This document shows, piece by piece, positions 10,358 through 62,432 of a DNA stretch of 64,000 bases. The notes under the pieces are model-generated. The model was given only the letters and a program-made list of their open reading frames with translations. It searched no databases and had not been told where the DNA came from. The stretch comes from Owenia fusiformis (taxonomy: Eukaryota; Annelida; Polychaeta; Sabellida; Oweniidae): the NCBI GenBank assembly GCA_903813345.2, contig CAIIXF020000001.1, positions 37,913,366-37,977,365 on the forward strand, in the 5' to 3' direction. Every line of letters begins with the position of its first letter. Positions within the stretch are counted from its first letter, which is position 1. Both the position numbers and the translations under genes were made by a program.

Positions 10358-10374
10358 ATGGTTGAAGGTTGATG
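10358..10374 (+). promoter_or_regulatory. Four-codon upstream ORF overlapping the GATA start codon
   Basis: An ATG at 10,358 opens a tiny frame (M-V-E-G-stop). Its TGA at 10,370-10,372 shares one base with the main ATG at 10,372, giving the TGATG arrangement. Both ATGs lie in the same exon, which starts at 10,334. Such an overlap could allow termination and re-initiation, lowering or tuning translation. The ORF is read directly from the sequence; its effect is inferred. Confidence 0.5.
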
Positions 10375-13300
10375 GACAGTGACACCAACTGGTCGGCAGC
10401 CACTAGCTCGCACGCTCAATCAGAGATTCAGCCAGCTCGATACGAAAGACCAGGGTCCTCACCGCGGGACCAACTTGTTATGCAGGAGAGACCTACTGCA
10501 CAGAACGCATTGTATCCACTACCCAAAGAAGAAGTTCAGTGTTTCTTTGATCAGCTTAGTGAACCAAATCAGCCCATCCCCGCAAGCACCCTGGCTACCC
10601 TAGAAGACCGCAGTATGTTCCAGCAGCCAATGACGGTGGCTAGTCACGCCCCGCCTACCTACCACCACGAAGGTAGCAGCTATTTGCATTCAGCAGCAAC
10701 CAACCCTGTCTACGTACCAACAACACGGGCTACATTGGGATCCATGCTACCAATGCAATATATGAGCAATGGAACGGGACAAGGATCGCCACAGGGTTGG
10801 CCAACACAGGACAATGGCTATTCAACTGCCAGTACCCATCCTTCCATGTCACCTAGATTTACGTTCCCTCCAACCCCAAGTCCCCCTGTCAGTTCTCCAA
10901 GCAGTCGCACTGACCCCAGTTACAGTGCACTTACACGGCCTACAGGAATCAGCCCCTATGGTTACCCTGACATCTCTGCCTGGAGCAGCTACAACAACAT
11001 GGCGTTGTCACCGCAGCAAGGTCTTCCAAGACGCCCCAGTGCAGGTAACAGAATCTTTGTTATAAAAAACTCACCATAAATATTAGTTTTGTAACCAGAT
11101 AACATATTTTGAAATTCGTAATACGTTTTTGTGAACAAACCTTACATTCTTTAACACTGTTAGTATTGGTGTTAGTTTCATATATCTGAACAAATACAAT
11201 CGCTTTTATCTTTGCACGTGTGTAATGCTATGTTTTGCTCGGTAAGTGTGCATGCTTGGGGCAGTTGTCAGCCGACACAATACAGAGGCTGTGTTAGGGC
11301 TCCATGTCAAGCGGCAATATCCTGACTTCAGAGCGTACTTATCTTTCTAATATCTATACAAGATCTCCGCAATTAAGCTACACTTTCCTCTATCTCTCCC
11401 CTACAACAGCCTGGATTGTGTAAATGCCTTGTCCAGACGCGAGAGCCTACTTAAAATAAAAGTTCTTGCTATTTCAACTTGTTGCACCTCACAGATGAAT
11501 GGCAGTTTTCCCATGATATATACATCAACTTCACGCTTACTTTGTGGAGTAACATGTTAAACGTTGCATCTCTGTTAGTCTGTATTCTGTTCCATCAGGT
11601 GATACATAAGTCAGGTGAATGCTTTTCTCATCATAAACGATTCTAGAATTTCATCTGTGGTTTGGTGTTCACTGTTCAGGTGTATCGAGTTAATGTTGAG
11701 TCATTTACTTTTCTCTTTGGACCTTGCTTCAAGAGATTGCAAATTGTTGAAGTCATTTATTTTATTCTTTAAATCGCACACATTGAGAGTTGTAACCTCG
11801 GGGACTATTTATTTTGTTTCTCGTAAAGCATTTACCAAATGTACTTCTCTTTGGTTTTGAGTTTTTACAGATGATGCTGTTGTGAGAAATAAGGCCTCCA
11901 TTGTAAAGGTATATAATATGGCTATTAATATGGCATAAATGAATAGTTCGCCAGCAGGATACTCTTGAGTAAAGTGACTCCAGATTTCAATCCGACCTCA
12001 CTTTACTGAAACTCGACATAACCATTTGCATTCAAACCATCCACAATTTAATATTTATTAAAAGCAGTTGTTTTTCAACTTCTCATATTGCGATCTTCTG
12101 TGTTACAGAAGAGTGTAAGATAATTTTTATTTATCATCGAGCACGTGTTTTTCCCTAACGTTTTGTATATGTGAATTACACTTGATGGGCTCCGTTTCCG
12201 TCTGCATAATTTCTCTCTTAAGTTCCTGACACCTTTCCTTGCTTTGTTTGCCCTAAAACAATTGTTGTTTTTAACATATATCTTGTCGGCGGGTTTTAAG
12301 GAGGGACAATGTGAAACAAAGCTCCATTGTTTCCTGTTAACCAAGTAGTTGTTGATTGAATGTTCACGTATGCAGCCATTCCACTTGACTCTAATGCCTG
12401 CCAAAATAACGAAAATCATACGTACTTTATACACTGGCAATAAAAAATGTTATGGTTGAAATTCTAAAACTTAACAAAGCTAATGAGATGGATGTTTTGG
12501 TAGCCATATGTAAAACGGCGTCAGTCAACGCTAGGGAGTCTAAATATGGCCCCGCCCATAGACCTGGATGGTTTTATAATTGAATACCATGCTGGTTTGA
12601 GCACCAGTCGAAGTCTTAGAAGCATGCAACACTGCATAATGATATGTTCATGATCCAAAATAATATAATATTATAGTCCCAGAAGCTTCAAGAATAACCT
12701 TATAGAAACTGCACTCGGAAAAAATCCATTGGTCTTCTTTACTTTTTGTAGTTTGCCTTATTCTAGTTTTGCATTTGAGGTGGAATATTTAGCGGAATTT
12801 ATACTAAAACCTTCATTCTGGGTTTTTCACTTCTGCTGTCAGATTCCTGATTCGACTGGCATTAATTCCGAGTGAGCTATGTTTTCGGAATATGATATAA
12901 AGGAGAGTGTTCATTGATGATGACGTTAGTGACGGGACAGGTGAATCTAAGGAGTGAGCTATGGCTACGCAACTACGTTAATGTGCATGCTAGAAATTGT
13001 TTGTTGGTAAACTATTTTAATTGGTACTGGATGTAATTAGTTATTGCGAGCCTGTCTTATCTCTTTGTGTTGATGGAGCGTTTGAGAGTATATCTGCAAA
13101 TGCTCCAACGAAAACAGCACACTTCACTGCAGACGGGTTCCTATTGAAAATGTATCATGACAAATCACTCTCTTCGGGATGTTAGTAAGGATTTTGGACT
13201 GAAGATATGGAAGGTGCATCCTTTGAACACTGATACGCTTCAGGAAGTGAAATTACATTTCTCAATGAAAATTTGGACATGGCGGATATGGTGTCTTCCA

Positions 13301-16300
13301 AGGATACATTTTTATTTTGTAATAGTGACAAAGGAAACAGAATTAATTGCTCATATAATCAAATAAACCAGATATGAGAAAATTTCAATTCTGTGACGAT
13401 TAAGAAAAATGAGAGAGGGTATGGTTGTCACTAATGAGAGACCATTACTGCCACCCTTGATGCACTTTGATGACAGGCTCACAGCAAGTTCTCTCTGGTG
13501 TTGAGTGGCTTACACCATGTCTATCAAACGCACAATCTCAGCTAGAGAAACCTCCATACTGATATGTAATGTTTGTAAGTGTATATAAACATCTAATGAA
13601 ATTGGTAAATAGGAAATATTTTAAGTTTCACAAGCTGTAAAGGACCGTCCATGACAAGTAAAATGACATTGAACATGTCAGGCGCATGATGATTGTTGAT
13701 GTCAAAGTAAAACATACTGATTTATACTGGTCAGCTGTGATGCCCTGGACAAACAAGGGTAGAAATAATGGCCCGCGAAAAATGTTCTTCGGGAATGTTA
13801 ACGTATTTGGTTATGAAGATTCGAGCCAGGTCAATAACAAAACATGCGCCTCCTCCAGTTTTAGAGAGCTCGTGGTGAGAGGGGATTTGGTTGCTATGGG
13901 AGGGGGTTACGGTGCGTATTTCAGTGTTTCAGCATCTGGCAATACTAGATGATAACCACACTAAACAAACACATGCTTGTAGTTTGTTTAAGCAATGTTG
14001 ATGTTAGTAAGAAGCCAGCAATGTAGCTTGATATTCAAAGCGCGTGCCCATTATCAACTCTCACAGCGGCTTTATCAAAACGTTGATAACAAAGTGTGAA
14101 AGTTGCAATGGAGTTGTATGACTCGACATCCCAGGACACTTTCTTTTTTATTGCTACAGAATGTGGCTTGTTGTTGGAGAGCATACTGGTGTCAGATGTA
14201 TGGTTTATGTCGTGGTCTGGGGGATATAGGTTTCAGTTCATCGCTGTAGAGCACAGTGTCTCGACCACTAGAGTGTGATTGATGGGGTTGTTAAGAAACA
14301 AGTGTAGCAGCTTTATTCCGAGATTACATTTCCTAAACTGAAACCACACTGGACCAAACCTTTGAGCATACTTCAACATGACTCGTTTGCAGCTTCTCTG
14401 CTTACATCGTATATACTTTCATGGTCTTTCTTATTTACAAACCTACAAAGTTTTGTCTAAGCGTGTTTTGCATTTTCAAATCTGGGAAGTTATCTTTGAA
14501 AGTCAATCCTAGTTCAAATTGTCTTTGTAATTAATGTTCAATTTTCTTAGACTAATCATCAACAATGGACTTTTTGTTGATATCAACATCTGACAAATAG
14601 CTTGTGGTAAAACATAATTTATGTCCTTTGACTTTCTGCTTAACTAAAGGCGTCAACGAGACTGTGTTAGTAGAAGTTTGATTATGCTGTAAACCTTAGC
14701 AAAATACACAGGAGGAAACTGCTTACACCAACCTTAATTAGACCGCTATGCCACTAACCTATATGTTTAATTACAATCTAATTAATGAATATAGCTGTTA
14801 CACAAGACTCAGAAACACTTGAGAAATTCTCAGCAAGTTTCCGCAAGACTTGGAGGTATTCTGAAACCTGGTACCCAAATTAACAATGGGTTATTTAAAC
14901 AAAGAGGTTGATGGGAATAAACTCAAACCTCTCCACTGGAATGAGTAATTAACTTCAGAAGGCATTCTGGACAAAATACATTTAACTTACTATTGATATT
15001 AATCAACAAGTATACATCGTGAATTTAATCATACTTTTGTTAAAACATAAATTTTCAAATTCATCTATTTTATGTTTTGATTCAGTAACTTCATTTGGAA
15101 TGGAATTATCGATTTCCAAATCAAATCTGATCTCCAAAAAATATTCTGCAGGTAGTATATTTTTATGTTAGTTTAGTTGATGTCATAAGCTGTTTATTTT
15201 ATGCTTCAAACATAACACAAGAATTCCAGAATCGTAAATGTTGCTTGTAGTGGTTAGAGTGAGTATAAACAAGACCAGTTGAGATATGTTACACTCGATC
15301 CTCTAGACCATACCTTAGACCTACTTATATCCATGGACCTTAGAGAAAGATACACTGAGGAAATGTCTGGTTAAATGTTAGATCAGCATGAGATGAACTG
15401 TTCATAGGAGGCTAAGTAAACATACAGCAGGTCTCTCTCTAGGCTTCACTTACATATGAGATCCTTTTACACCTGTACCTGCATCAGCAGCAGCGTCTTG
15501 AAACGCATACCGACATCTTCCATTTTTACACATAAATCATACACCTTAGTTATGCAGACAGAATCCAAGGTCATGAGAAAATCAAGAAAAGTCAAAATTG
15601 TCAGATAAGGCATCTATTCACCTGATCGGTATCTCTTGAGCACCTTGGCAACATCCGCCAATATGAAATACACAACTCCTTCCTCGTTTTGATCACAAGA
15701 GTAAACCCATGGCTCATCGAATGTGCAACATTTCAAAAATAAATTTAATCTAAACAAACTTGCAAGTTTCTGATACATGTTTCTTTAAAGTATGATCCCT
15801 TTGATGATTGTTGCTTCTCTTAGCGTATGTTGCTTTTCAGGTGTCTTATTTCACGTGGCAACATCACTGTGGAGATCGCCCATGCTGATAGAAGCACTGA
15901 TATAGAAAGCAATAACACCTTAGATCTGCATGGGAAATATTCCTTTTGGTTGAACTACAAACACTATGTTTTTAGGTGCAATGGTGGTCTTTATACTTTC
16001 ATCATGATTTATATGTTCTTTTTTACAGACTTTGACATGCGATCATCGTTCATCTTTAGATTGATCACTGCTGTTAAATATATTGACTGAAGTCTGGTCA
16101 TCTCCTTCAATTTTTACTTTTACGATGACTCCTTTGTCATGAAGTATTGAAAGTGATAATTTGTTTTCATATATTATACTTTCTGTTGATTAGAAGAGTC
16201 TGATTATTTCGCTGAGGGTCGGGAGTGTGTCAACTGTGGGGCTATCTCCACTCCTCTATGGCGACGAGATGGAACTGGGCATTATTTGTGCAACGCATGT

Positions 16301-18019
16301 GGCCTTTATAACAAGATGAATGGCATCAACCGACCCCTTATCAAACCCCAACGCCGTTTGGTAAGTGGTTTTATTACTAACCAGGCTGTATCCCTTTCTG
16401 CATTCAGACCCTGTTGTAGACCCATACGCCAGCAAACACTTGGAGTGTGTCAGATGTCGGAGCGTCTTGTCATCAGCGTGGCCCCAAGAAGGAATGGAGT
16501 ACATCCAATGTACTATGTGCGGACTCTACCAGCGCCTCAATGGCTTCAACCACGCCATGGCCAAGACCGGCCCCATCAGGAGCTCTAGGCTGGTCAGTCA
16601 CAGTTTCTATCTTAGTAATAATCTTGCATGCAGAAAGGGAACGGCTTGGTCCTTATTTAATTAACGTCTATAATTGCATAGTCTGAAAAATGTACAAATG
16701 ATAAGCTTAGTAAAATACTAAAATAATAGATAAACTGTAACCTTATTTATCAGTTATCCGTACTTAATAATTACTATCAATTTTATATTCATAATTGTAA
16801 TAACGTTCAACTTTATTGTTACAGTCTGCATCAAGAAGAGTCGGACTTTCCTGTGCAAACTGCCATACTTCACAAACCACATTATGGAGGCGAAACAATG
16901 AGGGAGAACCTGTATGCAATGCATGTGGCCTCTATTATAAACTGCATGGGGTAAGTTAGTTAGTCACGTTAAAACGGCGTCCAGCTCATAGAAATCTAAG
17001 AGTTTGAAATATCATACATATCCTTACCAAGTATAAGACAGTATTTATTTCTAATGGTCGACTGAAAAAGATTATATCAATATTTTGAAAATACTTTCAG
17101 CTTACAAACCAAGACAATGTTAAGAACACTATGTTCAGTATTATATTAGTACATACATGCATAATTAATCTATAATGTATATGATATTGCAGGTCAATAG
17201 GCCATTGGCAATGAAGAAGGAAGGAATCCAAACGAGAAAGAGGAAACCAAAGAACATGGGAAAAGTCAGAAGCCCAATGAAGTCAGAACCGTCTTCAGGT
17301 ATACTATTTAATAATACAAAGTCCTCCACGTCTTTAGCTATTTTAATATGATAATTTGTGTTATGATCTTTAAGAGTAATATGTACGGATCTAGATTTTT
17401 AGGCTTTTATATTTTCTAAAATGGGAATAGTTGGAATAGTTTTTGGCATAGTTTTGATATCAGAGTACTTGTGGATTGATTCTTGCGTTATTCTTTGCTT
17501 TCTTAGTTTTGCTCTTGTGTTTTAGTCAAATTAAATGCATTGTTTTGAATGTTATATTGCATTAGACCAAACTTAGAAATGAAATGCTATTTTAACCTTT
17601 ACAATCATAATTTTAATTTGAACATGTCAGACAAAGTACACATTTTCAAAACGTGATTATTTTTGTTTTCAGATTTGAAGACCTCCGTTAGCTCACCATC
17701 AATGGGATCTCTGCACCAGGTCCATAATTCCCAGCAGAGTGCTGCATCAGCCATGTCCGTCATCCATAACACCGGCAACCACGGTCTCTCCGTTAACAAC
17801 ATGATGCTACCAGGCAATACTAACATAAGCACTCCAGATCATAGCCCTAATATAGGCAGTCCAGGTGCTGGTCTCAATCCGGCATCTCAAACTCAAAGTG
17901 TCTTCCCTACTCCCTCGCCTCCTAAAGCAGTTCCTGTCAAAATGGAGCCTGGAACTATTATGACACCCTCGCATCATGAAACTACCACCCTAAGCTCAGT
18001 CTCTGTGGGAGGAAATTGA
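10372..18019 (+). CDS. GATA456: GATA4/5/6-class zinc finger transcription factor
   Basis: Coding exons are 10,372-11,044, 16,194-16,360 (or alternative 16,408-16,592), 16,825-16,950, 17,193-17,298 and 17,673-18,019. They join in frame with GT-AG introns and encode 472 residues (478 with the alternative exon). The N-terminal region is rich in Ser, Pro and Tyr and carries NPVYVPTTR and the RFTFPPTP and YPDISAW patches seen in GATA factors. The N-finger is CVNC-X17-CNAC with [12 protein letters not shown], and the C-finger is CANC-X17-CNAC with LWRRN. A basic tail [11 protein letters not shown] follows. The linker [13 protein letters not shown] and the tail match vertebrate GATA4/5/6 rather than GATA1/2/3. 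The protein should bind WGATAR sites in the nucleus; relatives specify endomesoderm, heart and blood. The C-terminus has VKMEPG, like the IKTEPG of GATA4 and a possible SUMO site. Confidence 0.95.
11045..16193 (+). other. Second large GATA intron (5.1 kb)
   Basis: Bounded by donor GCAG|GTAACA and acceptor TGTTGATTAG. It holds short open frames (for example 13,686-13,952) with no recognisable protein domain, and no clear repeat. I see nothing else in it; regulatory DNA is possible but not visible by eye. Confidence 0.6.
16194..16360 (+). CDS. GATA456: GATA exon A: canonical N-finger
   Basis: This 167-base exon enters in phase 1 (completing a Glu codon with the G at 11,044) and leaves in phase 0 (RRL|). 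It encodes EGRECVNC, 17 residues, then [12 protein letters not shown] and the basic [10 protein letters not shown]. All four zinc-binding Cys, the Trp and the DNA-contacting Arg pair are present. The intron behind it, down to exon B, is only 47 bases. Confidence 0.93.
16408..16592 (+). CDS. GATA456: GATA exon B: diverged alternative N-finger
   Basis: This 185-base open exon is preceded by CTGCATTCAG and followed by a donor GTCAGT. It has the same phases as exon A (in 1, out 0). Joined to 11,044 it reads [17 protein letters not shown] and continues CX2CX17CX2C with the second pair in [12 protein letters not shown], so all four zinc ligands and the exact 17-residue loop survive. The usual LWRRDG is AWPQEG, so the DNA-contacting Arg pair is lost. 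It appears to be a duplicate of exon A. Splicing A directly to B gives an immediate stop (ACC CTG TTG TAG), and skipping both shifts the frame, so exactly one of A or B can be used. Transcripts are needed for proof. Confidence 0.82.
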
Positions 18020-18700
18020 CAGACATGGTAGCTATAGACGTGTGAGTAATGAACAGTGACTGAAATTCTGCATCTCTATGGTGCCATAAAATGATAGTCT
18101 TTATGGACAACATGACAATGTTGAAAGGGTCTTGGGGACAATATGGCGCTATCAAAAAGAAGGAATGTCAACTGAGACTATGGTCCGGCAGAGAAAACGT
18201 TATGCACCATCATGACAGTGACTACCTCGGGCTAGCATAAGACAGGGTGCAGTAATATATCATGAACTATGCCTGCAGATCTTGCCATTTTTATGTCACA
18301 TTGGTGCCGATAACAAACGTGAATACAGTGATGTCAAGGCAGACATTGCATGACGAAATATGTCATGTTAATTCACTGTGATAACATTGTGTCTTGATTT
18401 TCTTGATTTCTAGCATCATGCTGAACAAGGAAAATGTGTGATAGAGTGTGATAATATAGTCTTAGGAAAATTAAAATAGTACAATTGTGTGGTAACACCA
18501 CCGCACAATACATACCATGAATAACTTCACAATTATTCACTAATGATAATATCATAATGATGTTGTATTATAAACAATATTGGGATAGATTGAGTTCCGT
18601 TTAATTCATATTGTTTATAAAATCACATTATTTTGGGTTAAGGACATTTATATCAAAGTAGACTACATGACACTTAATTTTCATTCATTGTATTGTCTAA
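18020..18700 (+). other. GATA 3' UTR and flank, no other gene
   Basis: The sequence after the GATA stop codon is AT-rich, with no supported coding exon. The first canonical AATAAA signals I noticed downstream lie beyond the next fold-back element (near 19,889, 20,014 and 20,486), so the 3' UTR may be long and include that element, or may use a variant signal. The end cannot be placed without transcripts. Confidence 0.4.
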
Positions 18701-19197
18701 TGGCCTAGTCACATAGCCCGGCCGATGAGGTTCCGATGAGCCAGCGATGCAATTTTCACCGAACTCGGCCGAACACCGGCCGGACACCGGCCGGACATCC
18801 GTGGCGTTTGTTGCTTAAAACCGCATCGGTGGCAGCTCGGTGAAATTTTAACTTCGGAGTTAAATTTCACCGGGCTCTCACCGAGCTCCCTCATCGCAGC
18901 CCCATCGTAACCACATCAGAACACACGTCGGCCGGTGCACTTCCGAGTATCGGTCGGTGTCCCGTGCATCTGAGACAACCAGAGGACGAGGTTTTTTTAA
19001 CGGACACCGGCCGAGCTCCGACCGAGCTCCGGCCGATGTGGGACAGAGCCTTGGAAAGTATAGTACCTGAAGATGTCCGGACGGAGTCCGTTCACGTCAC
19101 CGAGCTCTGCTTCCGATGAGGAGAGCTCGGTGGCACCAAAAAAATCCACCGAGCTCTACCGATGCCGGACATCGGCCGGGCTATGTGACTAGGCCAT
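18701..19197. mobile_element. GC-rich fold-back element (about 0.5 kb)
   Basis: The ends are exact inverted copies for at least 27 bases, beginning TGGCCTAGTCACATAGCCCG and ending with its reverse complement. The interior is unusually GC- and CpG-rich for this window and is built from many copies of ACCGAGCTC and CACCGGCCG words. There is no coding potential. It looks like a non-autonomous terminal-inverted-repeat DNA element (MITE). I could not define a clear target duplication, so the superfamily is unknown. Confidence 0.8.
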
Positions 19198-32400: not shown

Positions 32401-35400
32401 AGATTTACCCAGAATGCCCAAAAACTAATCAGTTCTTGACGTTGATATGTAGAAACATCCCTGAAAATTTCAGATGAATCCCTTAAAGGAATATTCCTTG
32501 CCAAACAATCTCTCTCCTCATATGGTAGCTATAACCATATATATGCTTGCCATGTTTAGCAAAACACGCAAAAATGTTTTGATATGGTCAAATTTGATCA
32601 CTTAGAAATGTGATGCTCAATTCCAGTAAGCTGCCATCTTTTAAAATTTCACACAGGAAGTGATGTCATCGACTCTCAACTTTGCATATAGCATTAGGTG
32701 AGGAGCTATTAAGAATTACAAAACCAGCTAAATATTCTTTTTCAACTTTGTATCTTATTTAATCCTTCTGAAAATCTCTTCTTTTATTCTAAGTTGACAT
32801 GCCCTGAAAATATTTTTGCATAGAAAGTAATGATCACTTGTCTAGAAGTGATTTTGTGCTACTTTCCTATACTGTTATGGGCAAGGTTATAGAAGTTGAG
32901 AGTTGATGACATCACTTCCTGCAAGAAATCTTAAAAGATGGCAGCTCACTGGAAATAAGCACTAGATTTTTAAATGATCAATATTGACCATATTAAAACA
33001 TTACCCCATGTTTTGCTATATATGGAAACTATATATATGATTATAGCTACCATATCAAGAGAGAAAGGGTCTGGCAAGGAATATTCCTTTAAATGGTTTG
33101 GCTGGAAACCTGTAGACAAGTCTTGAAAGTGAAGATTTTAGAACGGAAAATCCAAAATGGCCACCTTAAGATTTATCCAGAATGCCCAAAAACTAATCAG
33201 TTCTTGACGTTGATATGTAGAAACATCCCTGAAAATTTCAGATGAATCCCTCAAATGGTTTGGCTGGAAACCTGTAGACAAGTCTTGAAAGTGAAGATTT
33301 TAGGACGGAAAATCCAAAACGGCCATCTTAAGATTTACCCAGAATGCCCAAAAACTAATCAGTTCTTGACGTTGATATGTAGAAACATCCCTGAAAATTT
33401 CAGATGAATCCCTCAAATGGTTTGGCTGGAAACCTGTAGACAAGTCTTGAAAGTGAAGATTTAAGGACGGAAAATCCAAAATGGCCACCTTAAGATTTAC
33501 CCAGAATGCCAAAAACTAATCAGTTCTTGACGTTGATATGTAGAAACATCCCTGAAAATTTCAGATGAATCCCTCTAATGGTTTGGCTGGAAACCTGTAG
33601 ACAAGCTGAAAAGTGAGACGCCGCCCGCCGCCCGCCAAGCTGACTACAATATCGTACCTTTTGTTAGGTACGATAAAAACACCATTCAATATGATACAAA
33701 GTATTATCGCTCGCTAACTTTTCTTTAAACATTCAAAATGGCTGACATGACTGAGCTAACAGGTCCAAAACCTAATCAGATCTAGAATAAAGTGAGCTGA
33801 ACAAGATTTTAAAGTTTTAAAAGCAACTGTGAAGCCGTTTTTCTTAAAGTTTGCAGACAAGGATTTTAGCATTTGACTTCAAAATGGGTGACAGGAAGTA
33901 GGTATCGAGCTAATTTTTTTTCATCCACATCTATATGCACTCATGAGTTATCCCTGGAAATTTGAAGGTGATATCTGTAGCGGTTTTGGAGAAAACTGCC
34001 GGACGTACGGACAAGCGGACAGACGCGCCTAGGCCGACAATATGGCCCCACACTATGTGGTGGGGACATAAAAAAACTTACCTGGATACTGCCTTTTCTC
34101 CTCTTTCTTTTGCTTTCTCTCGTTGAAATTGCTGTTCATATTTATCAAATCTGTCGATGTTTTCAGGTTTGAGGACTGCTACTATACGCCTCTCTACAAC
34201 CTCTTCCTGTGGATCCAGGAGTTCATCTCTATCAAATATAGGTTCAGATCCCTCATCTTTACGTCTTGGTACAACAACATCTGCAGCATACAGGTGCTTG
34301 GGTATAACAGCAGGAGAGTTCCCTCGTATGTTGCGCTGTATACCAATCGTAATGTTCTCATCAGCTTTGAAAGGTCTATCATAGGGAGTTGTGAAACGTT
34401 CATTCAAAGTTAGTTTATCTTCAACCTCTTTGATGACTTTCTCAACATGTAATTCTTCTTCTGGGCTGCTTCGTCTTCTTCCTCTCTGTATATCTGGTTC
34501 TTTCTGTCTGTCTCGTTCTTTACTTCTACTCCGATCTCTCCTGTAATCTCTGTCTTCACGTCTATCTCGTCTTTCATCTTTATCTTCTCGTCTGTCATCT
34601 CTTCGGGAATCTTGCCTCTTGGGAGATGGTCTTCTTCCTCTCTTGGGTGAAGGAGATCTGCGCCTTGGGGACCTCTCCTCACGTTTCCCTCTGCTTCTGT
34701 CTCTACAATATGATGAATAGGATTCTCAATGAATAAGTAAAGACATGCTGATTGCAGATGCATATTACATGTAGCTATGTGGGGTTTTACCCTTGGTTCT
34801 ATGGAGCAACATCAATAATGTTAATTTATACAATTCATGTAATTCAGTTAAAAACATCTTGTAATAAAAGAAACAAATGTGAACTAATTGTTATAGGAAA
34901 GCACCCCAATATGTTTAATCCAAGTATAGCTTATACACCCCATGTCTTAATTCCCATTTATACATTCCCAATGATTGCTAATGTGACTGGCATAAAATGC
35001 TGTTTGAGTTATACAAGAAATACACTATGGTTCTTGAATCTAGCTACATGATCTAAAGAAATACACTAAATATGTAAAAGGAATCAGCATTATTGTGTAA
35101 GTTGAGTCTACTCACTCATGCCTACTGTCTCTTCTCTGCACTCGTTGAGGAGATCTAGAATAGCGTCTTTTTCTCTCAGGGGTTCTAGATCTTCTACGGG
35201 GTGGTGGACTGGGAGATCTTTTAAAAGAATTAGAGCCCCTGAAATCATCAACTCTAGGTGTGAACACATGAATCGATATAACAATGATGTAAGACACGTC
35301 ATACAGTTGCTTTGTAATTGTTGTTCTTGTTGTTTTGAACTGATTCTATAAATTATTTATAGACTTTTGGATGTTCTGTGTATTTTATCTAATAATTTAC

Positions 35401-39749: not shown

Positions 39750-40517
39750 CTGAACATATTTCTCCATTCCTGCACTGATTTCCCACATCGCGAACTGCAC
39801 AATTTTGTGGTTCACGATGTGGGATCTCTGTTTTTGAGTCGAGAAATATGTTTGGGAGAAAAGTATTGGTTGTTCTCAATTAGCATCAATATTCGCGTTG
39901 TGAGAACTGTGGTGGTCAGTTTTAGAAATTTTTTGAGGAAAATAATATGGGGATATAGTTATCGTATCCTACCGACCACTTAAGATTGTGGTCGTACGCC
40001 CGATTCATTGGTAAGCCTGTCTTTCTACAATGTCGGAGAATGAACTACGCATTGCACTATTAAATGACCTACCTCGATACATTCCAGAGTACTTTAGAAT
40101 TTTTTTTATGTTGTTAGATCGCCAATTGTATGGGTTTATCGGCAGAATGAATAGATTTTAGTTTTTACTTCGAAAATATGTCAGCAATTTTCAATATGTC
40201 GGAAGGGGAATTCCCCAGGGATTTCCCTTATGACTGGTTCATGCCGGGAACTGAATGGAGGAATTTGACGGTTGAAATAAGTTAAATATTACACGCAAAT
40301 ATTGCTATCAAAAATGAAAATATTTTCGTTCTGCCGATAAACCCATACAATTGGCGATCTAACAACATAAAAAGAATTCTAATATACTCTGGAATGTATC
40401 GAGGTAGGTCATTTAATAGTGCAATGCGTAGTTCATTCTCCGACATTGTAGAAAGACAGGCTTACCAATGAATCGGGCGTACGACCACAATCTAAAGGGG
40501 TCGTAGGATGCGATAAG
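39750..40517. mobile_element. Fold-back element(s) in the GTSF1-like upstream region
   Basis: From about 39,950 to 40,517 two arms of about 190 bases face each other. The left holds GTGGTCGTACGCCCGATTCA and CAATTGTATGGGTTTATCGG; the right holds their inverses. Just left of it, TCCCACATCGCGAAC (39,781) pairs with GTTCACGATGTGGGA (ending 39,824), and ACATATTTCTC with GAGAAATATGT around it, giving a second smaller fold-back. The stretch could be one composite element or two neighbours. Confidence 0.75.
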
Positions 40518-41935: not shown

Positions 41936-44900
41936 ATGTCTGTCTGGCATGTGAATCCCGACCCAGAGGAACTGGTGCCATGCCCATACCAGAATAGCCA
42001 CATGGTGAGGCAGAAGAGGTTCCCCTATCATCTCATGAAATGCAGAAAGGTATATCTTCATTCTAATAATACTCATCAAAACTTCTTTCTTGTAATAGAA
42101 GGAAGGAAATGAAGAAACGTGTGGCTTACCACAGTGGGATGTAATGACCATGTTATTTGTCTCTGTTACTTTTTATATTTTTTGTGGATAAGAAACAATT
42201 GATTTTGTCAGGGAATTGCATATTTGAATTAGGTAAAGTCAGGGAATTTTGATATGGAAATGCTCTGGCAACTCTATCTTTAATTTTGAAAATTCTGATT
42301 TTCTAACAATCAACAACACCCTATGCAGACAGAGCCTGTGGGAAATATTGGGTGCGGAGCAAATGAGCGGAGGGTGCGGAGCTAACGGTTATTTTTGAAT
42401 TTAAATTTGGGATATTTCTGAAACTAAGCCGTTTTGGGACTTCAAATATACCAAGATATGTGTATTTGACACCAAATATCAATACAATTGTGAAAATAGT
42501 AGCGCAATTCATTCTATAGTGACGCAGTGTGCCTTAAACCTTTCCCAGACCTATATATTCTGAAATTATCCTTTTAATACTGAGTCCCCAGCATTCATAA
42601 AAAATGGTGTTCAAGGTGCACTATCTATACAAATTATTTTTGCATCTTGGAAGCCAGGCAGTATCTGTGTGATTTTATAAAAGTTCGGAAATTTTTTCAG
42701 ATATGAGCCCCCTCTAAATATTGGGTGCGGAGCAGCTCCATAAACGTGGATCTTGAACACCATTTTTTATGAATGCTGGGGACGCAGTATTAAAAGGATA
42801 GTCTCAAAATATATAGGTCTGGGAAATGTTTAAGGCATACTGCGTCGCTATAAAATGAATTGCACTACTATTTTCACAATTTTATTGATATTTGGTGTCA
42901 AATACACATATCTTGGTATATTTGAAGTCCCAAAACGGCTTAGTTTCAGAAATATCCCAATTTTAAATTCAAAAATGACCGTTAGCTCCGCACCCTCCGC
43001 TCATTTGCGCCGCACCCAATATTTCCCACAGGCTCTGTCTGCATAGGGTGAACAATGTCATAAAAAAATATATTGACTCTTTGAAGATGGTAAAAAACAG
43101 ATTTTAGTATTGTTTATTTATTTTCTAGCAATACACAGGCAATGACTTTGCTACATGTCCCTTCAATGCCAGACATGAGATGCCAAGACCAGAGCTTAGG
43201 TACCATGTCATCAATTGCCCAGATAAAGCAGTCCTTGAGCAAGAGATCCTCTATAGTAAGTGATTATACTGCAAACAGATTACTATTTTAAGTACAACAG
43301 AAAAGGTAAATCAAATGTTAGATTGAAAAATGGTTGCATTACAACAATATTCTGATCTCCTGTGTCAAAAGGCTCTGATTTCAGATACAGATTTTTTACC
43401 TCCCAGTTCTTTCCCATTGATCTATACATTGCAGGGGCATCAGAAGGATTTGCCTAGGGAGGGGGCAATTTTTGTAATACTGGTTAATGGCCATGTTTTT
43501 GTCTATCACGTATTAGTCTATTGAGTTTTCCATTCCTAATTTTTGCAGTATATTGAATTTAATCCATTATTCCTTCATATCAGTCATATCAACAAAACCA
43601 GTCAGCTATGAATCAAAAATGTCATGTAGAACACTATTTCACATAAATGGTTTGGAGTTTGTATTTGAATAACAAAGTTAATTTGTTGGGGTTTTTTTCA
43701 TGCAGAAAAATGGAATGTGCATAAACTTAACGTTGTTCTGTATGACTATGTTGTTGTCATTTCAGACCAGAGCAAGAATGAAGAGGGTACCTACTTCAAG
43801 GGCAATACTGCCGTACCTTCATACTTCCCTGACTGGCAACCCCCAGCCTCCTCTGAGGATTGGGACAGTGGTAAGTAAAATGTTAAGATTGGTTACTTGG
43901 GTTTTTGGCTAATATGAATTACATCAAATTCCCTCCGGAGAATTATGTAATTTCCAGTGATTTCACCTGGATATTTTTGTCTAAATATGTTAATATTTCA
44001 TCCTTTTGATGGGGTTTACAAAGATCCTTCCTTCAAATGGAGTGGCATATAACATTAGAATTTTCAACAGTTTCTTTGCACTAAGATAGTCCACTGACTA
44101 TTTACTATCATTTGTAATAAATAGATTATGTTATGTTATAGTTTTTTATTGCAGATATTAATTTGTTAGAATGTTGTTATGATTTTTTGTTTTATTTTAA
44201 GTTAAAACAACTCCCTAGCCTATAATGTTATTTGTTTTATTATCCCATCGAATGAAGTTCGGAGGGATATAGGGAACGCCTCCGTCCGTCCGTACGTACG
44301 TCGTACGGACGTCCGTCCGTCTGTCCGGGCAATAACTCAAATACCGTTGGCCCGATTTTGTTCATATTTTGTACACATATACCCTATGGGGGTAGAAGTT
44401 CTGCTCGAAAGCCGATTTTCAAAATGGCCGCTCATTTCAAAATGGCGGCCGTTTTAGTGCCGAATTTACAGTAATTTAGGTGCAATATGTAAAACTGTAA
44501 TAGCAATATGTTTTAGATGTAAAAAAATTATATAGGACATTAATAAAGCTAGAAATGTAGATATTAAAGAAGCACATGGCAGCCATCTTGAAAAATGGTG
44601 GTCTTTACTCGTTATTTTACGATTTTTGCTGTAACTCCAAAAGTAGTGGAGCGATTTTGTTCATATTTGGTATGTGAATACTATAAACATTGCACACTGT
44701 CTAAAGACAATTTTAGTAGAAGGCGGCCATTTTTCAAAATGGCCGCCATTTTAACGTATTTTACTATAACTTGAAAAGTAGTGGAGCGATTTTGTTCATA
44801 TTTGGTATCTGAATACTATAAGCATGACACACTGTCCTATGACACTTTTGGTAGAAGGTGGCCATTTTGGAAAAGATTTTGAAAAATGGCCGCCATTTTA

Positions 44901-47900
44901 ACGTATTTTACTAATCGCTTCGAAAGTAGTGAAGCGATTTTGTTCATATTTGGTATGTGAATACTATAAGCATGGCACATGGTCTAATGACACGTTTGGT
45001 AGAAGGCAGCCATTTTTGCTATATCCTTTGTTTGTAAAAATGCCATCCATGGCTGTTCGATGGGATTCGCTACGCTTTGGCGTTGCCGTTGTTCTGGTTT
45101 CAAGTTAAAACAGCTCCCTAGCCTATAATGTTATGACAATTAAATTAAATATTTTCTGTTATTGAAAACCAATGTTGTTTTGTTTCAGAGACGCCATCTG
45201 TTGTGAGGATTGGAGTTGACCCAAAACAAATTAATCCAAATGGACTAATGTTTAAAGACACTTCAGGGTAAGTATGATATAAAAAATTTACTAAAAATAT
45301 TTTCTTGATTCATGAAAACTGTGAAAACAATTTAGGCTCCGAGTGACAGTAGCTTTTTGTCAAAATACTTTGTAATGAAAGATTTTTGAGGTGTTACACA
45401 ATACAGGCACCTTAGTTACGGAGCTTTTTGTCAGAATTTGAATCATTTCAAAATAGTTAAGTAAAATATTTTGTTACTCTGATACTGAGGTGCAGTATGT
45501 TGCCATTTGCTGGGCAGGTAGAAATAGAAGTACAAAATGAATTGATACACTTTTACAGTTATAGTTATTATAAAAGTGATCGCCACAATCATGAACATTG
45601 AATTTTCTCAGGTTTAGAATCAATGCACTTTCCAGTTGCAGTCACCAGTACAAAATCATGAATGACTTTTACACATCATCATTTTAGATATACAATCGAC
45701 CAGTAGATTAATAAAAAGAAAACCTAGTACATATAATGATAGAAATATCATACAATTCTCTTTGTGATTGCCATGAAAAGATATAGAATCAAGCATTGCA
45801 ACCATCCTCTGTCCACTGGGCTTCAAAGTATGTCACCATTGTTATAGTGGGAAGTGTCCAACATTTTTGCGTACAGTGTTAAGCATTTGGCTGTCAGTGG
45901 TTAGTGTTAGGTGTCTGTAAAAATAGCAGGTGCATGTTAATACCCAGACATAGAAGCCATTGATGAAATACCAAGTTTTCTGGTAACGGTATCACGCGGT
46001 AGTATCTCTTCGGGACGTATCGAAACCACTCCGTCCCGAAAAAACCGTTAATTTGAATTTAAAACCTACCCCAGTGTTTGAAAATCAAGGATTGTGAGTC
46101 TCACACTTCACCGTTTTTCTTCAAACTTGTTCCGTACAAAGCTTCACAGAAATACCTTTCAGTCGATACATTGTTTTCGTGTACAATGTACCTCGTTTTA
46201 GCGGCGTTTTGGTCCCCAGCTGCGAGATAATGCAAATTTTCATAACTTTCAACTGTAAGTCAAGTTATCTCGCCAGTCTTTTACCCATTCTCGCCCATAA
46301 TTTCAGAATGGACTCCCATTACAACCTTCCATCGCTACGTCTTGATTTTTGGGCATCAAACGCAGCAGTTTCTAAATCATCCACACATTTCTTCAAATTT
46401 GACCAATACGTCCCGTCATCTTCCACTACGCCCCGCCGAGTCTATCACTATACACGTAGAGTTGCATTCTAAAACAATTTGTCCATCGATGTGTCCGTTT
46501 GTAGGTTGCCATTGTCGATTCTAAATACCAATCGGATTGTGTTTTAAGATTTACCCATTCTTGTCCATTTTCAATATACCTATAATAGGGTGGTCCAAAA
46601 TCTCCCTAAAATTTAGATTTCCCGATATTGCAATATAAAGATTTTAATTACTGAACAATTGAAAATATTTTTAAGAAACGTTTAAAGTGCCCTATCCTTG
46701 AAAAAATGTTAAAATGCGAAAGGATGGGTGATGTCAATTATATTATTTTCAACATAACGTTAGAAACCTGTATCATTTTATATGGTACACGTTTCATAAT
46801 GTAATCCAATGGAATCATACAGAAGAAAGGTTGACACACAACAGTTAAAACCTTTATATTACATTATCAGACCAAGTCAGTAGAGTTGTTTATATACCAA
46901 TTAGTGTTGTATGATGATGCATTCTTTATATGAATCTTGAAACGTTTTTGTGCCAATATTGCTCAATTTTGATAACATCTCCGTTATTTTGAAATTAAGC
47001 GTGGTACCGGTGTAAAAGCGTAGGTGGTCCTATCAAATTATGGTCCTAGTCTCTATTGATTTATATGGTGACCTGATTACAATTATTTTCCTTATTATTT
47101 ATACACAATCAGGGCCAGAAAGGGCCGTTAGGAAAGGGGACCATAATCCCCAGGGGACCATAATTTCTTTCACACCGGCTTTGTTAGTACTTTGCCTTGG
47201 ATGTCATACAGTACATTTACACTGTGGCATGATGATGAACTTAGAAAATATGTAAAGTCATGACAAAATGTTCTTTGTGATATAATATTGTATAGTATCA
47301 TTCTGATACGTATTACATGTTTATGTTTAGTGCATAAAATTCATAGCCAGATTAATAATTCGGAGAGAATACGCTGGACGATAGAATATTAAAAACTATA
47401 AAAACATTCTTCATAGAATTAAGCAAATAGTGTTATTATCATTTAAGTAGTAACTGCATATGTTTAAAACCACTCTGTTTAAATACAGGTAAATAAATAA
47501 ATATGATGCAATGAAAATTGAAGCTTTCTGTCGAGAGCAATAGTCATCACAATAGTATAGCGTTTTTTCTTTTACATGTTACTTTTTGTACATCATTGAT
47601 TGATCCGCTCTAATCTGCCCTCGGCCGATAATTTATAAATTATTTATGTTGAACATTAGCAAAACAAGACACAATTAGCAAACCAGACACTTGGTTTCCT
47701 CACAAAATCAAATACAGGACAATTACATATAATTAAAGTTAAAAAGCAACATCTTCACAAACATTTAAATTATGAATTTCATGCAATCAGTTATAGTTAT
47801 ACTCCGTATGTATGCTAAACTTAAGACTGGTGTTTAGAATCGACCAAGGCAAACCTATGTAAAATTACACAACGATGAACAAAATGTTTTTGAATACAAC

Positions 47901-50900
47901 TCCACGTTTGTAGTCATAGACTCGGCGGGGCGTAGTGGAAGGTGACGGGACGTATTAGTCAAATTTTAAGAGATGTGTGGATGATTTAATAACTGCTGCG
48001 TTTGATGCCCAAAAATCAAGACGTAGCGATGGAAGGTTGTAAGGGGAGTCCATTCTGAAATTATGAGCGAGAATGGGTAAAAGACTGGCGAGATAACTTG
48101 ACTTACAGTTGAAAGTTATGAAAATTTGCTTTATCTCGCAGCTGGGGACAAAAACGCCGCTAAAACGAGGTACTTTGTACACAAAAACAATGTATCGACT
48201 GAAAGGTATTTCTGTGAAGCTTTGTACGGAACAAGTTTGAAGAAAAACGGTGAAGTGTGAGACTCACAATCCTTGATTTTCAAACACTGGGGTAGGTTTT
48301 AAATTCAAATTAACGGTTTTTCGGGACGGAGTGGTTTCGATACGTCCCGAAGAGATACTACCGCGTGGGTATTATTGATAGCTAATTGCTGCCTATATTT
48401 ATAGAATGACTCCAGCGCAAAAGAAGAACTTCAAGAGAATCCTTGCCAAGAGAGCAGAAAGAACAGCAAATGGGCTGTAAGTATATGGGTTTAATGTGTT
48501 AATTAAAGTACTGTATATTGCATAGTACATGTTGTGGGCCTATTCCAAGAGAAGGGTAGTTGGGTACTTTCATATTTAGGAAAGAGAATAACATTATTGA
48601 AGGTCATGTTATGTGAATGTGACTACAAATCATTCTATCAGTGTGGTTACAAATCATTCTACCAGTGTGGTTACAAATCATTATGTATCTGTTGGATAAT
48701 GCATTTATTAAACCAAGCTATCAGAGGATGATCAAAGACTGACCAATTTCAAACATCTGTTACTATATCCATCATTTTTTTGCAACCAAGAAGCCATATT
48801 ACCTTATTAAATCCTGCATTTTCTGGCCCACTGATGAGCCCCTCCAATGCTTGTTTCAGACCCACAGATGACTTAGATGAAGATCTCATGAATGTAGGTT
48901 CATGTGAGGAGAATGTTCCTCCAGGTTTGCCACCCAAAGAGGAACCTGCTACTAAGGAACAGCAGTTGAGACTCCCCAAACAAGCCCCTCAGGTGCTTAC
49001 CATGCAGCAGAGGCAGCAAAAACAGCAAGCCACTCAACAGCCAGCAGCTCCACCATCTGTATTTGCTTACTCTCTAGGTAAGCATGTATCCAAACTTCTC
49101 TCCTGCATTGAGGTGCTCCACTCAAAAGTTATGCAAGCGTGTAAATTTTGAAGATTATAAATTACGGGTTAAAATGAATTCTAAAGATGTTAAAAACAAA
49201 TGATATTTAGATAATAGCCATGGCATAGATAGCTTGTTTTTATACAACAACTGGTGACATATTTTTACAGTCACCAACTTTTTTGTGGACGGTATTTGGC
49301 AGTTGGTGTTCGCCATTCAGCAGTTGGCATTTGTAACAAATGGCGGGTGGTGACATTTTCCATATAAATTCCTTGTTATTTGGTTTGGTCTCATCAAAAT
49401 GAATCACACATCTTAACTCCAAATTGATGTGTTTTTTAGGAATGGCTGGTATTGGACGTGGCATGAACAGAGCTTTGATGCAACAGGCACCAGGAGGGCT
49501 TCAGATGAATGGTGCTCCTGGGACAACACAGAATCTTAGCACACCAGTTGCCTTACAGAATGGAACTGTACCACCTGCTCAACAAAATGGCCTACGTTAT
49601 CCAGAAGTTGGAGCTCAACCCCCTGGCTCCTACCCTACTTCAGAAGTGGGATCTCAGAATGGAGGTATGTAGTAAATACGAAATGTTTGCCTGTTTTTCA
49701 AAAATATTGTGAATAATGATAAAGAGAAATTAACCCCCTACAGATGAAAATGTTTGAGATTAATTTTTGAAATCATCTTTTTAATAACGTAATTAATGAA
49801 TATTTAATTAGATTATATAGTAGGTTGAGTTGAGATATTAATTTAAATGTCTTACTTCAGAGCGCAAATCTCGTATGGCTGCCAACATATTTCCATCTGG
49901 CCCAGCAAAAAGTGGTACAGGAGCGCCACCTGGAATCGCCCCTAGAAATGTCACTGCAGCACCCATACCACAAGCCCAGACACAGAAGCCAATGATGAAT
50001 GGTGTTCAGGGAACCTCAACATCAGATGTCAATGCTGCCTCTATGCTTGCATCGCTCTCCAGGGGCAGAGGAATTGGGCGTGGTGCGGTGATGAAACAAC
50101 CTGGGGCTCCAGTATTCTCTATGGGGCGTGGGATGGGTGCCAACCCAACACCAAGCTTTGTGGTTCCAAAGACAGAGGTACCCGCTGAAACTTCTGCACA
50201 GAAAACTATGAAAAAATTGCAGAAAAAGCTGCGAGAGGTGAGTTTGTCCAAAAATTTATGTTCCTGAAAAAATTCCTTATCATGATTATAATCAATACTG
50301 TCAAGTCTCGTATTGTCATACCATGTTCTATGTAAATACCATGATTAGACAATACCAAATAAGTGGAGCATAATATATTCTCTTTAGTCATCATAGTCAA
50401 TGTGCCATTAAAAGTCATCTAGATTGCTCTCTATATAGTGAAGCACAGGGTCCCTCCAATATGGGAGTCACTTCTGTTGTAGTAACATGAGTAGTTTTCT
50501 GAGGTTATGGGTGAAATTGCTACCACCAAGAAGTCGTGGGATGTTGTTTGAACCTGTTCTTGTTGTAATTGGCATTCACAGTTAAGCAGTTATCACTCAA
50601 CTTTCCATGACTGTTACTCCTTTGTAGTCATCTGCAATAATTTACATGGTGTTGCATTTTGTCATGTTAATGCCTTGTATAATAATCCAGTGTGCAAAAG
50701 GCTATTATGATAATTAAATAATATTTTTTCTTAATAAATATCTCCAGATTGATAACTTGCTGGAGCGAGAGAGAGATGGAGAAAAGCTGAACCCAGAGGA
50801 GGTATAGTAGCATATTGTTATTATGTATTGTTGACTTACTGTTATAGTCTCTAACTTTATTTGTGGATGATGTTTGTCAGTTGGCATCTGTAACAAATGG

Positions 50901-60098: not shown

Positions 60099-62432
60099 TT
60101 AATGATGTAAATCAAGATTATTTCTACTCCCATGGGCTTGAAACAATACCAAGTTTCTAGGGTTGTATTCATCATGAAGTGGTGAAAACCAATCTTCTCT
60201 CTCGATTTCTTGCTCTACCACATTGTCATTTTCATTGATTTGTGCACCAATATTTTGTTCAGCCCCCTGCAGTTCTAGTTCATCATCATTTTGTTCAACA
60301 TCACTCTCCGCTTCTATCACCATAGTTTCAGAAATAATAATATCTTCAACGTCCTCTTGTAATCGAGTGTACAATGGCACAGGCAACACCCTCTTTAGCT
60401 TACGATAGAAATCTGGCTCATGTATATCTAAGAATGTGTGAGACTTGAGATGCATTGCAAGATCCGTATCAATGGGAACACCTTTCAAGTCTTCACACTT
60501 AATTATGATCACCTTTACCCCCTTCCGACTGAGGGCATTATTGTGGGCAGTTCGGAATTCGTACTTACACCAGTTGCTCTGTAGAAAGTTCTTGCTAAGG
60601 ACCAAAAGGGTGACTCGACTATCCGATATACAGTTTGCAATGTTCTGGGTGATCTGCAAACCGTGCACAAAGTCTTTATCTGCAAACGCTACGTAATACC
60701 AATGACGTGGTTCGTGCCCCTGCTCGTCATTTTCTGCCTCATTGTACATCAGCCGGTCAATCAAATCTTTCTTCACCCAGTCCTTATCCTTCTCAGAAAA
60801 TGATATAAAAACATCGAATTGTAAACGCAAGTCGTAATCAACTTGAATTGGGGTCTTTCGCTTATCATCTATTATCACAAAAACGACACCAACAAATCCG
60901 ATGAGCACTAACAAATTCACGACGCCAATCTGAATGAAGACAAATATCCAGTTTACACAAACGAAATCGGAATCGGCCACATCTTTCAATGACCTCCCCA
61001 ATAGATACTGGTTGTGACATTGGATAGCATTGGCATCTGGAACAATCCGTCCATTCTTTTGCAACCAATATTTCAGCCAAAGGCTATGGCAATCGCATCT
61101 TAATAGATTTTTACTGAGTGTCAATTCTTCTAGATTTGTTACATTCAAACGTTGCCATTCTTTCTTTGGTAAATACGTCAGATTGTTTGATTCAAGCAGA
61201 ATTGATGTTTGTGGTGTTTGTGTCAGTATTTGAATCAAAGTTCCATCAATGGAAATCATGTTGTTATTAGTGACATCAAAAACTGTGACATTCCGCAGAT
61301 ACGCTTTAGATGAGGTCGGGGATTGGATCGCGTTGTTTGCCAATCGAAGTTCAATATGATGTCCGCTAGGAACATTGTCTGGAAGTTCACTGAGTCGGTC
61401 ACATTTAACAACAATTGTATCATTAGCGGGACGTCTGATACAATGACAATTCGCGGGACAATCCGTTTTGACCTCACACTGGAATTTGTCCTCTTCAGCG
61501 TGAAATATGTCGACTCCACGTAGGGCTTTGGGGTAAAAACAGTTTATTGATACGTCGATTTGAATTCCATGTACAACATTTTTCAAATAATGTACGACTT
61601 CAAACATATCACAATCACAGTAAAACTTGTTTCCAAAGTAAAAGCGCATATCTATTAATTTCATTAATTCAAGCACACTAGTAAAGTGATACATTTTCAC
61701 CATGTCCTGAAATGTTTGGATGCGTCCAAAACTATTAAACTGAAAATCGATTTTTACACAATCTCCCCATGGCGACCGTTCTTCAGCTATGCTCCAGTTG
61801 ATTTTGTTCGTGAACCTTTGCAAGTCGTTATAAGAGACGTTGAGCGTAATACATCGATTCGGATCTCTAGCATTGGGCAACCTAAATACCCAAGGGTCGA
61901 ACTCTTCAAGTTTATTATGATTCAGGTCAATAAGCGAGAGGCTTTCAAGATCCTTGTTGAATGCAAATACATCAATTCTCTGTATACTATTGTGCCCTAT
62001 GTAAAGTTCTTTCAATGTTGTAAGTCCACTAAATGTATTATTCACCAGCTTTTTGATTCTATTATTTGTTAAGTTTAACACCGAGAGAGTGCTGAGGCAA
62101 CCAATCGACGTATTTTTTATATCACTGATGTGGTTTTGTGATAAATCAAGAACGACTAACTTCCTTAATATACACACTGATTTCGGAATTTCTCTCAATT
62201 GACTACTAGTGAACCTAAGTTGAGTAATATTGTCTTTCAGATTATAAAATAATCTTTCCAGCTCGTTTGTGCTAAATCCTTCCCGACACCGTATTTGAAA
62301 CAACTTGTTCTTTTCAACTAAGCACGTACATCTCTCTGGACATGAGTTGTCATAGAAGTCAGTCATCACGACGCATAAACCAAGATTCACTGCTATCATC
62401 AGGGTCAAAATGCTCATACGAAGCGACTCCAT
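60099..62432 (-). CDS. Intronless Toll-like receptor, 777 residues
   Basis: A single uninterrupted frame starts at MESLRMSILTLMIAVNLGLC, a signal peptide. An N-terminal LRR cap (SCPERCTC, about 31-49) precedes roughly six LRRs (VLDLSQNHI, VLNLTNNRI, ELYIGHNSI, LIDLNHNKL). A first C-terminal cap starts near residue 270 (FYCDCDMF), a second N-cap near 323 (CPANCHC), two or three LRRs follow, then a second C-cap near 444 (LRCDCHSLW). The membrane helix starts about 494 and the TIR domain spans about 535-685 (box 1 FDVFISFSEKD, box 3 NWCKYEF). Two Cys-cap clusters place it in the multiple-cysteine-cluster (Toll-like) class. TIR box 2 reads KDFVHG, with His where many TLRs have the signalling Pro. 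The tail of about 90 residues is acidic and ends in the EYNPRN region. It should sense ligand at the cell or endosome surface and signal through adaptors. Confidence 0.96.
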   Translation of the reverse strand: MESLRMSILTLMIAVNLGLCVVMTDFYDNSCPERCTCLVEKNKLFQIRCREGFSTNELERLFYNLKDNITQLRFTSSQLREIPKSVCILRKLVVLDLSQNHISDIKNTSIGCLSTLSVLNLTNNRIKKLVNNTFSGLTTLKELYIGHNSIQRIDVFAFNKDLESLSLIDLNHNKLEEFDPWVFRLPNARDPNRCITLNVSYNDLQRFTNKINWSIAEERSPWGDCVKIDFQFNSFGRIQTFQDMVKMYHFTSVLELMKLIDMRFYFGNKFYCDCDMFEVVHYLKNVVHGIQIDVSINCFYPKALRGVDIFHAEEDKFQCEVKTDCPANCHCIRRPANDTIVVKCDRLSELPDNVPSGHHIELRLANNAIQSPTSSKAYLRNVTVFDVTNNNMISIDGTLIQILTQTPQTSILLESNNLTYLPKKEWQRLNVTNLEELTLSKNLLRCDCHSLWLKYWLQKNGRIVPDANAIQCHNQYLLGRSLKDVADSDFVCVNWIFVFIQIGVVNLLVLIGFVGVVFVIIDDKRKTPIQVDYDLRLQFDVFISFSEKDKDWVKKDLIDRLMYNEAENDEQGHEPRHWYYVAFADKDFVHGLQITQNIANCISDSRVTLLVLSKNFLQSNWCKYEFRTAHNNALSRKGVKVIIIKCEDLKGVPIDTDLAMHLKSHTFLDIHEPDFYRKLKRVLPVPLYTRLQEDVEDIIISETMVIEAESDVEQNDDELELQGAEQNIGAQINENDNVVEQEIEREDWFSPLHDEYNPRNLVLFQAHGSRNNLDLHH

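Follow-up and report, generated by a model that had tools for sequence, protein, structure and literature searches.

In Drosophila, the GATA4/5/6-class gene serpent can exchange the exon for its amino-terminal zinc finger (N-finger). Exon 4A carries the N-finger, and exon 4B, which lies between the N-finger exon and the exon for the carboxy-terminal finger (C-finger), replaces 4A in a mutually exclusive manner and is without any known motif (PMC8844375). The accessible portions of that work describe 4B as the probable product of a duplication of the N-finger exon, state that among arthropods it was not found outside hexapods, and suggest that the switch frees Srp from its partner FOG. The choice between the two exons is reported to be governed by RNA pairings (PMC6071210, in its accessible sections). 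Here we describe a GATA gene in a 64-kb stretch of the genome of the annelid Owenia fusiformis (hereafter the window; all coordinates are positions within it, and the analysis covers this one species). It is the one GATA gene of the window and lies on the plus strand. Its N-finger exon (exon A) is followed, after a spacer of 47 bases, by a diverged copy (exon B), and then by the C-finger exon (exon C). The sequence supports A and B as a tandem, frame-locked, either-or exon pair, the actual choice of exon in transcripts being a prediction. The pair matches serpent in layout and in probable purpose. New here, judging by its residues, is a recognizable alternative finger whose reading faces, and not its fold, appear to be gone.

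The gene and its putative control elements are laid out as follows.

10372-11044, plus strand: first coding exon seen, with the GATA-N activation domain (PF05349, 45.8 bits against a cut-off of 20.3), an open frame, donor CAG/GTAACA and exit phase 1; the start ATG is presumed.
16194-16360, plus strand: exon A, canonical GATA N-finger, 167 bases (Pfam GATA 60 bits; donor TTG/GTAAGT, U1 pairing -10.2 kcal/mol).
16361-16407, plus strand: A-B spacer, 47 bases, too short for separate regulatory elements, holding branch site, pyrimidine tract and helix arm 1.
16375-16381, plus strand: TACTAAC, a perfect branch consensus and predicted branch site, with branch A at 16380, which is spacer base 20 and lies 27 bases upstream of exon B.
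16380-16403, plus strand: helix arm 1, which takes in branch A together with the exon B pyrimidine tract; 10 pairs are followed by a bulged A at 16390 and a further 13 pairs.
16408-16592, plus strand: exon B, diverged N-finger copy, 185 bases, placed by homology and frame (donor CTG/GTCAGT, U1 pairing -5.0 kcal/mol).
16625-16630, plus strand: TGCATG, which we take to be an RBFOX-type motif, 33 bases behind the exon B donor and overlapping the foot of helix arm 2.
16628-16650, plus strand: helix arm 2, behind the exon B donor, placed by its pairing with arm 1; the 22-mer 16629-16650 is unique in the window.
16825-16950, plus strand: exon C, canonical C-finger (Pfam GATA 61.7 bits).
17193-17298, plus strand: exon 5, basic tail of the C-finger, open in the joined frame.
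17673-18019, plus strand: last coding exon, open in the joined frame, with the stop codon at 18017-18019.

The gene is of the GATA4/5/6 type because exon A joined to C matches human GATA-4 (E 6e-58 over 95 positions), exon 1 carries a GATA-N domain, and the N- and C-fingers are canonical. Two CX2CX17CX2C fingers, the basic tail and the GATA-N domain, which mark membership of this class, are all found. A six-frame scan for CX2CX17-18CX2C recovered three GATA fingers in the window, those of exons A, B and C, to which tblastn added none. The assembled frame, which starts at the presumed ATG (10372) and ends with the stop codon at 18017-18019, is open with either A (472 residues) or B (478 residues). 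An original prediction, made from the letters of this stretch, had held that A and B share an entry phase of 1 and an exit phase of 0, that A joined to B meets a stop at once, and that skipping both breaks the frame. Junctions, lengths and phases bear this out: reading from A into B stops three codons after A, and skipping both exons brings a stop after 25 codons. The locus therefore combines the features by which mutually exclusive pairs are recognized, namely homologous adjacent exons, equal phases, and loss of frame upon joint inclusion as well as joint skipping. In the protein, the last residues are QRRL for A and SRL for B, and the SASRR of exon C follows either. The frame of exon A also stays open across the spacer and then, out of frame, almost to the end of exon B (16190-16588, plus strand, 132 codons); retention of the spacer would yield a truncated protein.

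Residues of the finger are numbered here as in GATA1, in agreement with the wild-type letters in the accessible part of PMC9600848. At the 18 finger positions common to A and C, exon B keeps nine, those for zinc and core (the four Cys, Trp215, Gly229, Leu230, Tyr231 and Gly236), and changes the other nine (Asn206, Thr212, Leu214, Arg216, Arg217, Gly221, Asn226, Ala227 and Lys233). The changed set includes the classical DNA contacts, and the Leu, Arg-Arg and Asn-Ala residues by which DNA is contacted are replaced throughout (L214A, R216P, R217Q, N226T, A227M). As had been predicted, CX2CX17CX2C, the Trp, CGLY and NG are retained, the Arg pair of LWRR has become Pro-Gln (the motif reads A-W-P-Q), the FOG-contact Val is kept at GATA1 position 205, and Gly208 is Arg. 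In GATA1, R216Q lowers binding to palindromic sites and does not lower FOG1 affinity, and G208R, a human disease change, reduces FOG1 binding (PMC9600848, in its accessible part). Because of the Arg at position 208, exon B looks FOG-poor as well as DNA-poor, and we predict a finger that reads DNA and FOG weakly and retains zinc binding. The earlier idea of a splice switch between a reading and a non-reading finger thus gains from the either-or pair and from the loss of DNA-reading residues, but its suggestion that the second finger is partner-specific is weakened by the same Arg at 208.

Homology shows exon B to be a genuine tandem copy of the N-finger exon, and an old one. It matches A at 42.0 bits (tblastn, E 6e-9) and C at 26.6 bits (E 0.002). 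Searched with phmmer against Protein Data Bank chains, it finds GATA-3 (E 1.9e-11) and GATA-4 (7.6e-11), with 29.5 bits for the N-finger domain of GATA-3 versus 17.8 for the C-finger. Both its homology and its Cys spacing (CX2CX17CX2C) are those of a GATA N-finger. In alignment with A, 16/47 residues are identical, seven of them with a different codon, and the mismatches lean to third positions (22, 19 and 29 of 47 at codon positions one, two and three). The exon B frame is open for 61 codons, as are 31/1442 non-coding stretches. Its GC content of 0.56 exceeds that of intron 1 windows (n=249), which reach at most 0.47, and its codon-usage score of 15.8 compares with a non-coding mean of -24, with 7/3130 non-coding windows scoring as high. 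We also simulated neutral decay from exon A to 50% nucleotide identity by substitutions only (n=20,000): 1727 copies stayed open, 13 kept the four Cys, five did both, and none of these also kept the Trp, CGLY and NG. Because 0/20,000 neutral decays kept the frame together with the finger residues, selection maintained the finger pattern of exon B while most of the divergence built up, which says nothing of present selection. Relatives of exons A and B were absent from viral contigs, a collection from the wrong domain of life, and among genome contigs exon A matched one bacterial locus (L001) over 22 residues, likewise in the wrong domain of life.

The placement of the branch site and an RNA helix around exon B go beyond the original prediction. 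TACTAAC occurs six times on the plus strand of the window, one of these in the spacer, and the predicted branch A at base 20 falls short of the distance of about 35-50 bases below which a branch lies too near its donor for splicing. In E1A pre-mRNA, a distance of 50 between 5' splice site and branch permits spliceosome assembly and one of 35 abolishes it, and alpha-tropomyosin is cited as a mutually exclusive case of such a short distance (PMC6692369, in its accessible part). Because branch A lies only 20 bases into the intron, splicing from A to B probably cannot proceed, and the frame lock adds a further safeguard. In alpha-tropomyosin and OGDH, too, the branch consensus of the intron between the two exons sits too close to its donor, and the frame is likewise broken when OGDH exons 4a and 4b are both included. 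In those genes, however, a long distance separates the branch sites from the acceptor, whereas here the intron is 47 bases long and the branch-acceptor distance is an ordinary 27 bases (PMC7969005, as far as its accessible text goes).

The spacer also pairs with the start of the intron between B and C. The helix consists of 23 pairs between 16380-16403 and 16628-16650: ten pairs (two of them G-U), a bulged A, and thirteen Watson-Crick pairs. The duplex has an energy of -41.3 kcal/mol, against a mean of -17.7 (sd 3.0) for dinucleotide shuffles, 0/2000 of which are as low, and its core is present (13/13 pairs) in the minimum free energy structure of five folding contexts, with a mean probability of 0.988. 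In a comparison of 416 windows between 9 and 19.5 kb, the next best partner reaches -24.0 for arm 1 and -29.3 for arm 2, and neither a comparable partner nor a competing docking site for either arm was found in that range. A mobile-element origin of the arms was considered and rejected, as a search allowing up to three mismatches places the arm 2 22-mer at a single site in the window; no Rfam match at gathering score was found in the window. A second perfect complement of 10 bases (16371-16380 with 16612-16621) takes in the branch site and crosses the main helix, as a pseudoknot or a competitor; AT-rich and possibly a chance match, it was set aside. In the looped-out exons of Dscam, 14-3-3zeta, Mhc and srp, intronic complementary stretches also enclose the alternative exon (PMC6071210, in its accessible sections). 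Here, in contrast, the 3' splice site itself serves as one arm and a competing docking site is missing from the range above. Serpent further differs in that two intronic pairs surround its two exons, whereas here one helix surrounds B and no comparable pairing like that of the serpent two-pair model was found for the acceptor region of exon A (best -23.4; mean -12.9, sd 3.4).

The exon B donor has the weakest U1 pairing of the five coding donors (-5.0 versus -7.2 to -10.3). Because the helix lies over the 3' splice site of exon B and the weakest donor is also on exon B, the locus suggests that A is the default and B is conditional. TGCATG, present in 193/6390 100-base windows of the 64 kb, is weak evidence for a regulator; as a guess, an RBFOX-type protein bound there could open the helix and help exon B.

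Taken together, we lean, with moderate confidence, toward a splice switch from N-finger A to a folded finger B that reads neither DNA nor FOG well. B, derived long ago from the N-finger exon by tandem duplication, would be a strict splicing alternative to A: the closeness of its branch site to the A donor would prevent A-to-B splicing, and transcripts with both exons or neither would be out of frame. By default, the helix that the spacer forms with the beginning of the intron behind B would shut the 3' splice site of B and loop the exon out, whereupon the strong A donor would join the C-finger exon; B would be used only when the helix is opened or its weak donor is helped. Use of A would yield a GATA4/5/6 factor of the usual two-finger kind. 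The B product would keep a zinc-binding N-terminal finger fold, lose its DNA-contact residues and part of the FOG face, and may act as a GATA factor with one reading finger, free of N-finger constraints, as proposed for Drosophila SrpC.

Several observations weigh against this switch. In real window sequence, 7/1047 matched placements reach the energy of the helix, although all seven belong to four inverted-repeat elements, whose arms range from 28 bases to 222 bases or more. Counting the helix, there are about 11 distinct sites in the window where a 13-base sequence recurs as a perfect inverted repeat at a distance of up to about 300 bases, and the argument for the helix therefore rests on its energy and exact placement, not on the bare repeat. 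The branch site of exon B is a prediction, and splicing of very short introns does occur in some invertebrates. The codon-usage score cannot pick the frame of exon B, since scores of 12.4 and 14.8 are reached in its two other forward frames. In structure prediction, the mean predicted local distance difference test score was 56.1 for exon B and 59.2 for exon A, a bona fide N-finger used as control; both came from three-row alignments, and the finger helix formed in neither, the control included, so that the prediction says nothing about exon B. The two remaining contrary points would also suit a decaying duplicate, that is, a relict exon seldom or never used and shut off by the helix and the weak donor: the donor is the weakest of five, with C at +3, and exon B misses the gathering score of the Pfam GATA profile PF00320 (14.7 bits versus 26.8). 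The burial of its 3' splice site in the helix suits such a relict as well. We nevertheless consider decay improbable, given an open frame that still encodes the four Cys, the Trp, CGLY and NG although nucleotide identity is down to 50%, a combination seen in none of the neutral decays, together with exon-like GC content and codon score and a good acceptor (15/20 pyrimidines).

The retention of Glu203 and Val205 on the FOG face also counts against the switch as we frame it, in that loss of FOG binding may be partial. These two residues accord with another idea, in which B is a zinc finger that has gained a partner and was selected, as a protein-binding module, for a new contact surface, such that the switch changes the cofactor and does not just remove N-finger functions. 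That the fold residues are kept though the DNA set is gone fits this as well, as does serpent 4B, which indicates that an escape exon can do without a finger (PMC8844375, in its accessible part). No partner is known, however, and the Arg at 208 points away from FOG; we regard a gained partner as a tentative alternative, on the unlikely side. Much further down we place a poison or regulatory exon, by which early-stopping A+B transcripts would lower the output of the A form. Such transcripts do stop three codons into B, but the frame downstream stays intact throughout when B is joined to C, and the position of the branch site speaks against A+B splicing, which makes this role very improbable.

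Elsewhere in the window, an element at 18700-19197 has perfect 28-base inverted ends and GC-rich inner hairpins and looks like a miniature inverted-repeat transposable element; it lies about 0.7 kb downstream of the stop codon of the GATA gene and probably belongs to the 3' region of that gene. Three large inverted repeats (32525-33050, 39976-40500 and 42400-42967), with arms of at least 158, 219 and 222 bases at 83, 89 and 94%, respectively, have the look of foldback-type mobile elements. Near-identical peptides in opposite orientation at 46098-46472 (plus strand) and 47955-48263 (minus strand) form an inverted repeat copy that is probably derived from a mobile element. An intronless Toll-like receptor gene lies at 60099-62438 on the minus strand, with an open frame of 779 aa, leucine-rich repeats and a TIR domain.

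The original prediction had set this locus apart from serpent as a different solution. That contrast was overstated: serpent 4A and 4B are themselves mutually exclusive, 4B likely arose from duplication of the N-finger exon, and both genes are of the GATA4/5/6 class with an alternative exon after the N-finger exon and before the C-finger exon (SrpNC/SrpC in the fly). What stands is that 4B, compared here by its description, is poorly conserved and without known motif, whereas exon B keeps the zinc-finger pattern (PMC8844375, in its accessible part). Little structural change has been reported for lophotrochozoan GATA456 genes, and neither "mutually exclusive" nor "duplicated exon" occurs in the accessible text of that report (PMC2383905). 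In the open-access literature we found no title on an alternative N-finger exon outside hexapods, a weak negative given that most subscription papers lie outside that scope. A silkworm GATA-beta isoform has reportedly been described; our literature search did not find it.

It is conceivable, although we think it doubtful, that the serpent switch was not a hexapod invention, and that the animal GATA4/5/6 line acquired a second, either-or N-finger exon early on; B would then be a less decayed descendant, and hexapod 4B the same exon with its finger melted away. If B is homologous to 4B, the published hexapod origin of the alternative exon (PMC8844375, as given in its accessible part) would need revision. 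Gene duplication has given vertebrates several GATA factors; in flies, a single gene is varied through splicing. An N-finger switch in a second animal, its alternative finger still recognizable, would show how such a switch starts, with the fold kept and the DNA and cofactor contacts lost first, and would tie exon choice to a compact control device in which branch site, pyrimidine tract and helix arm share 47 bases.

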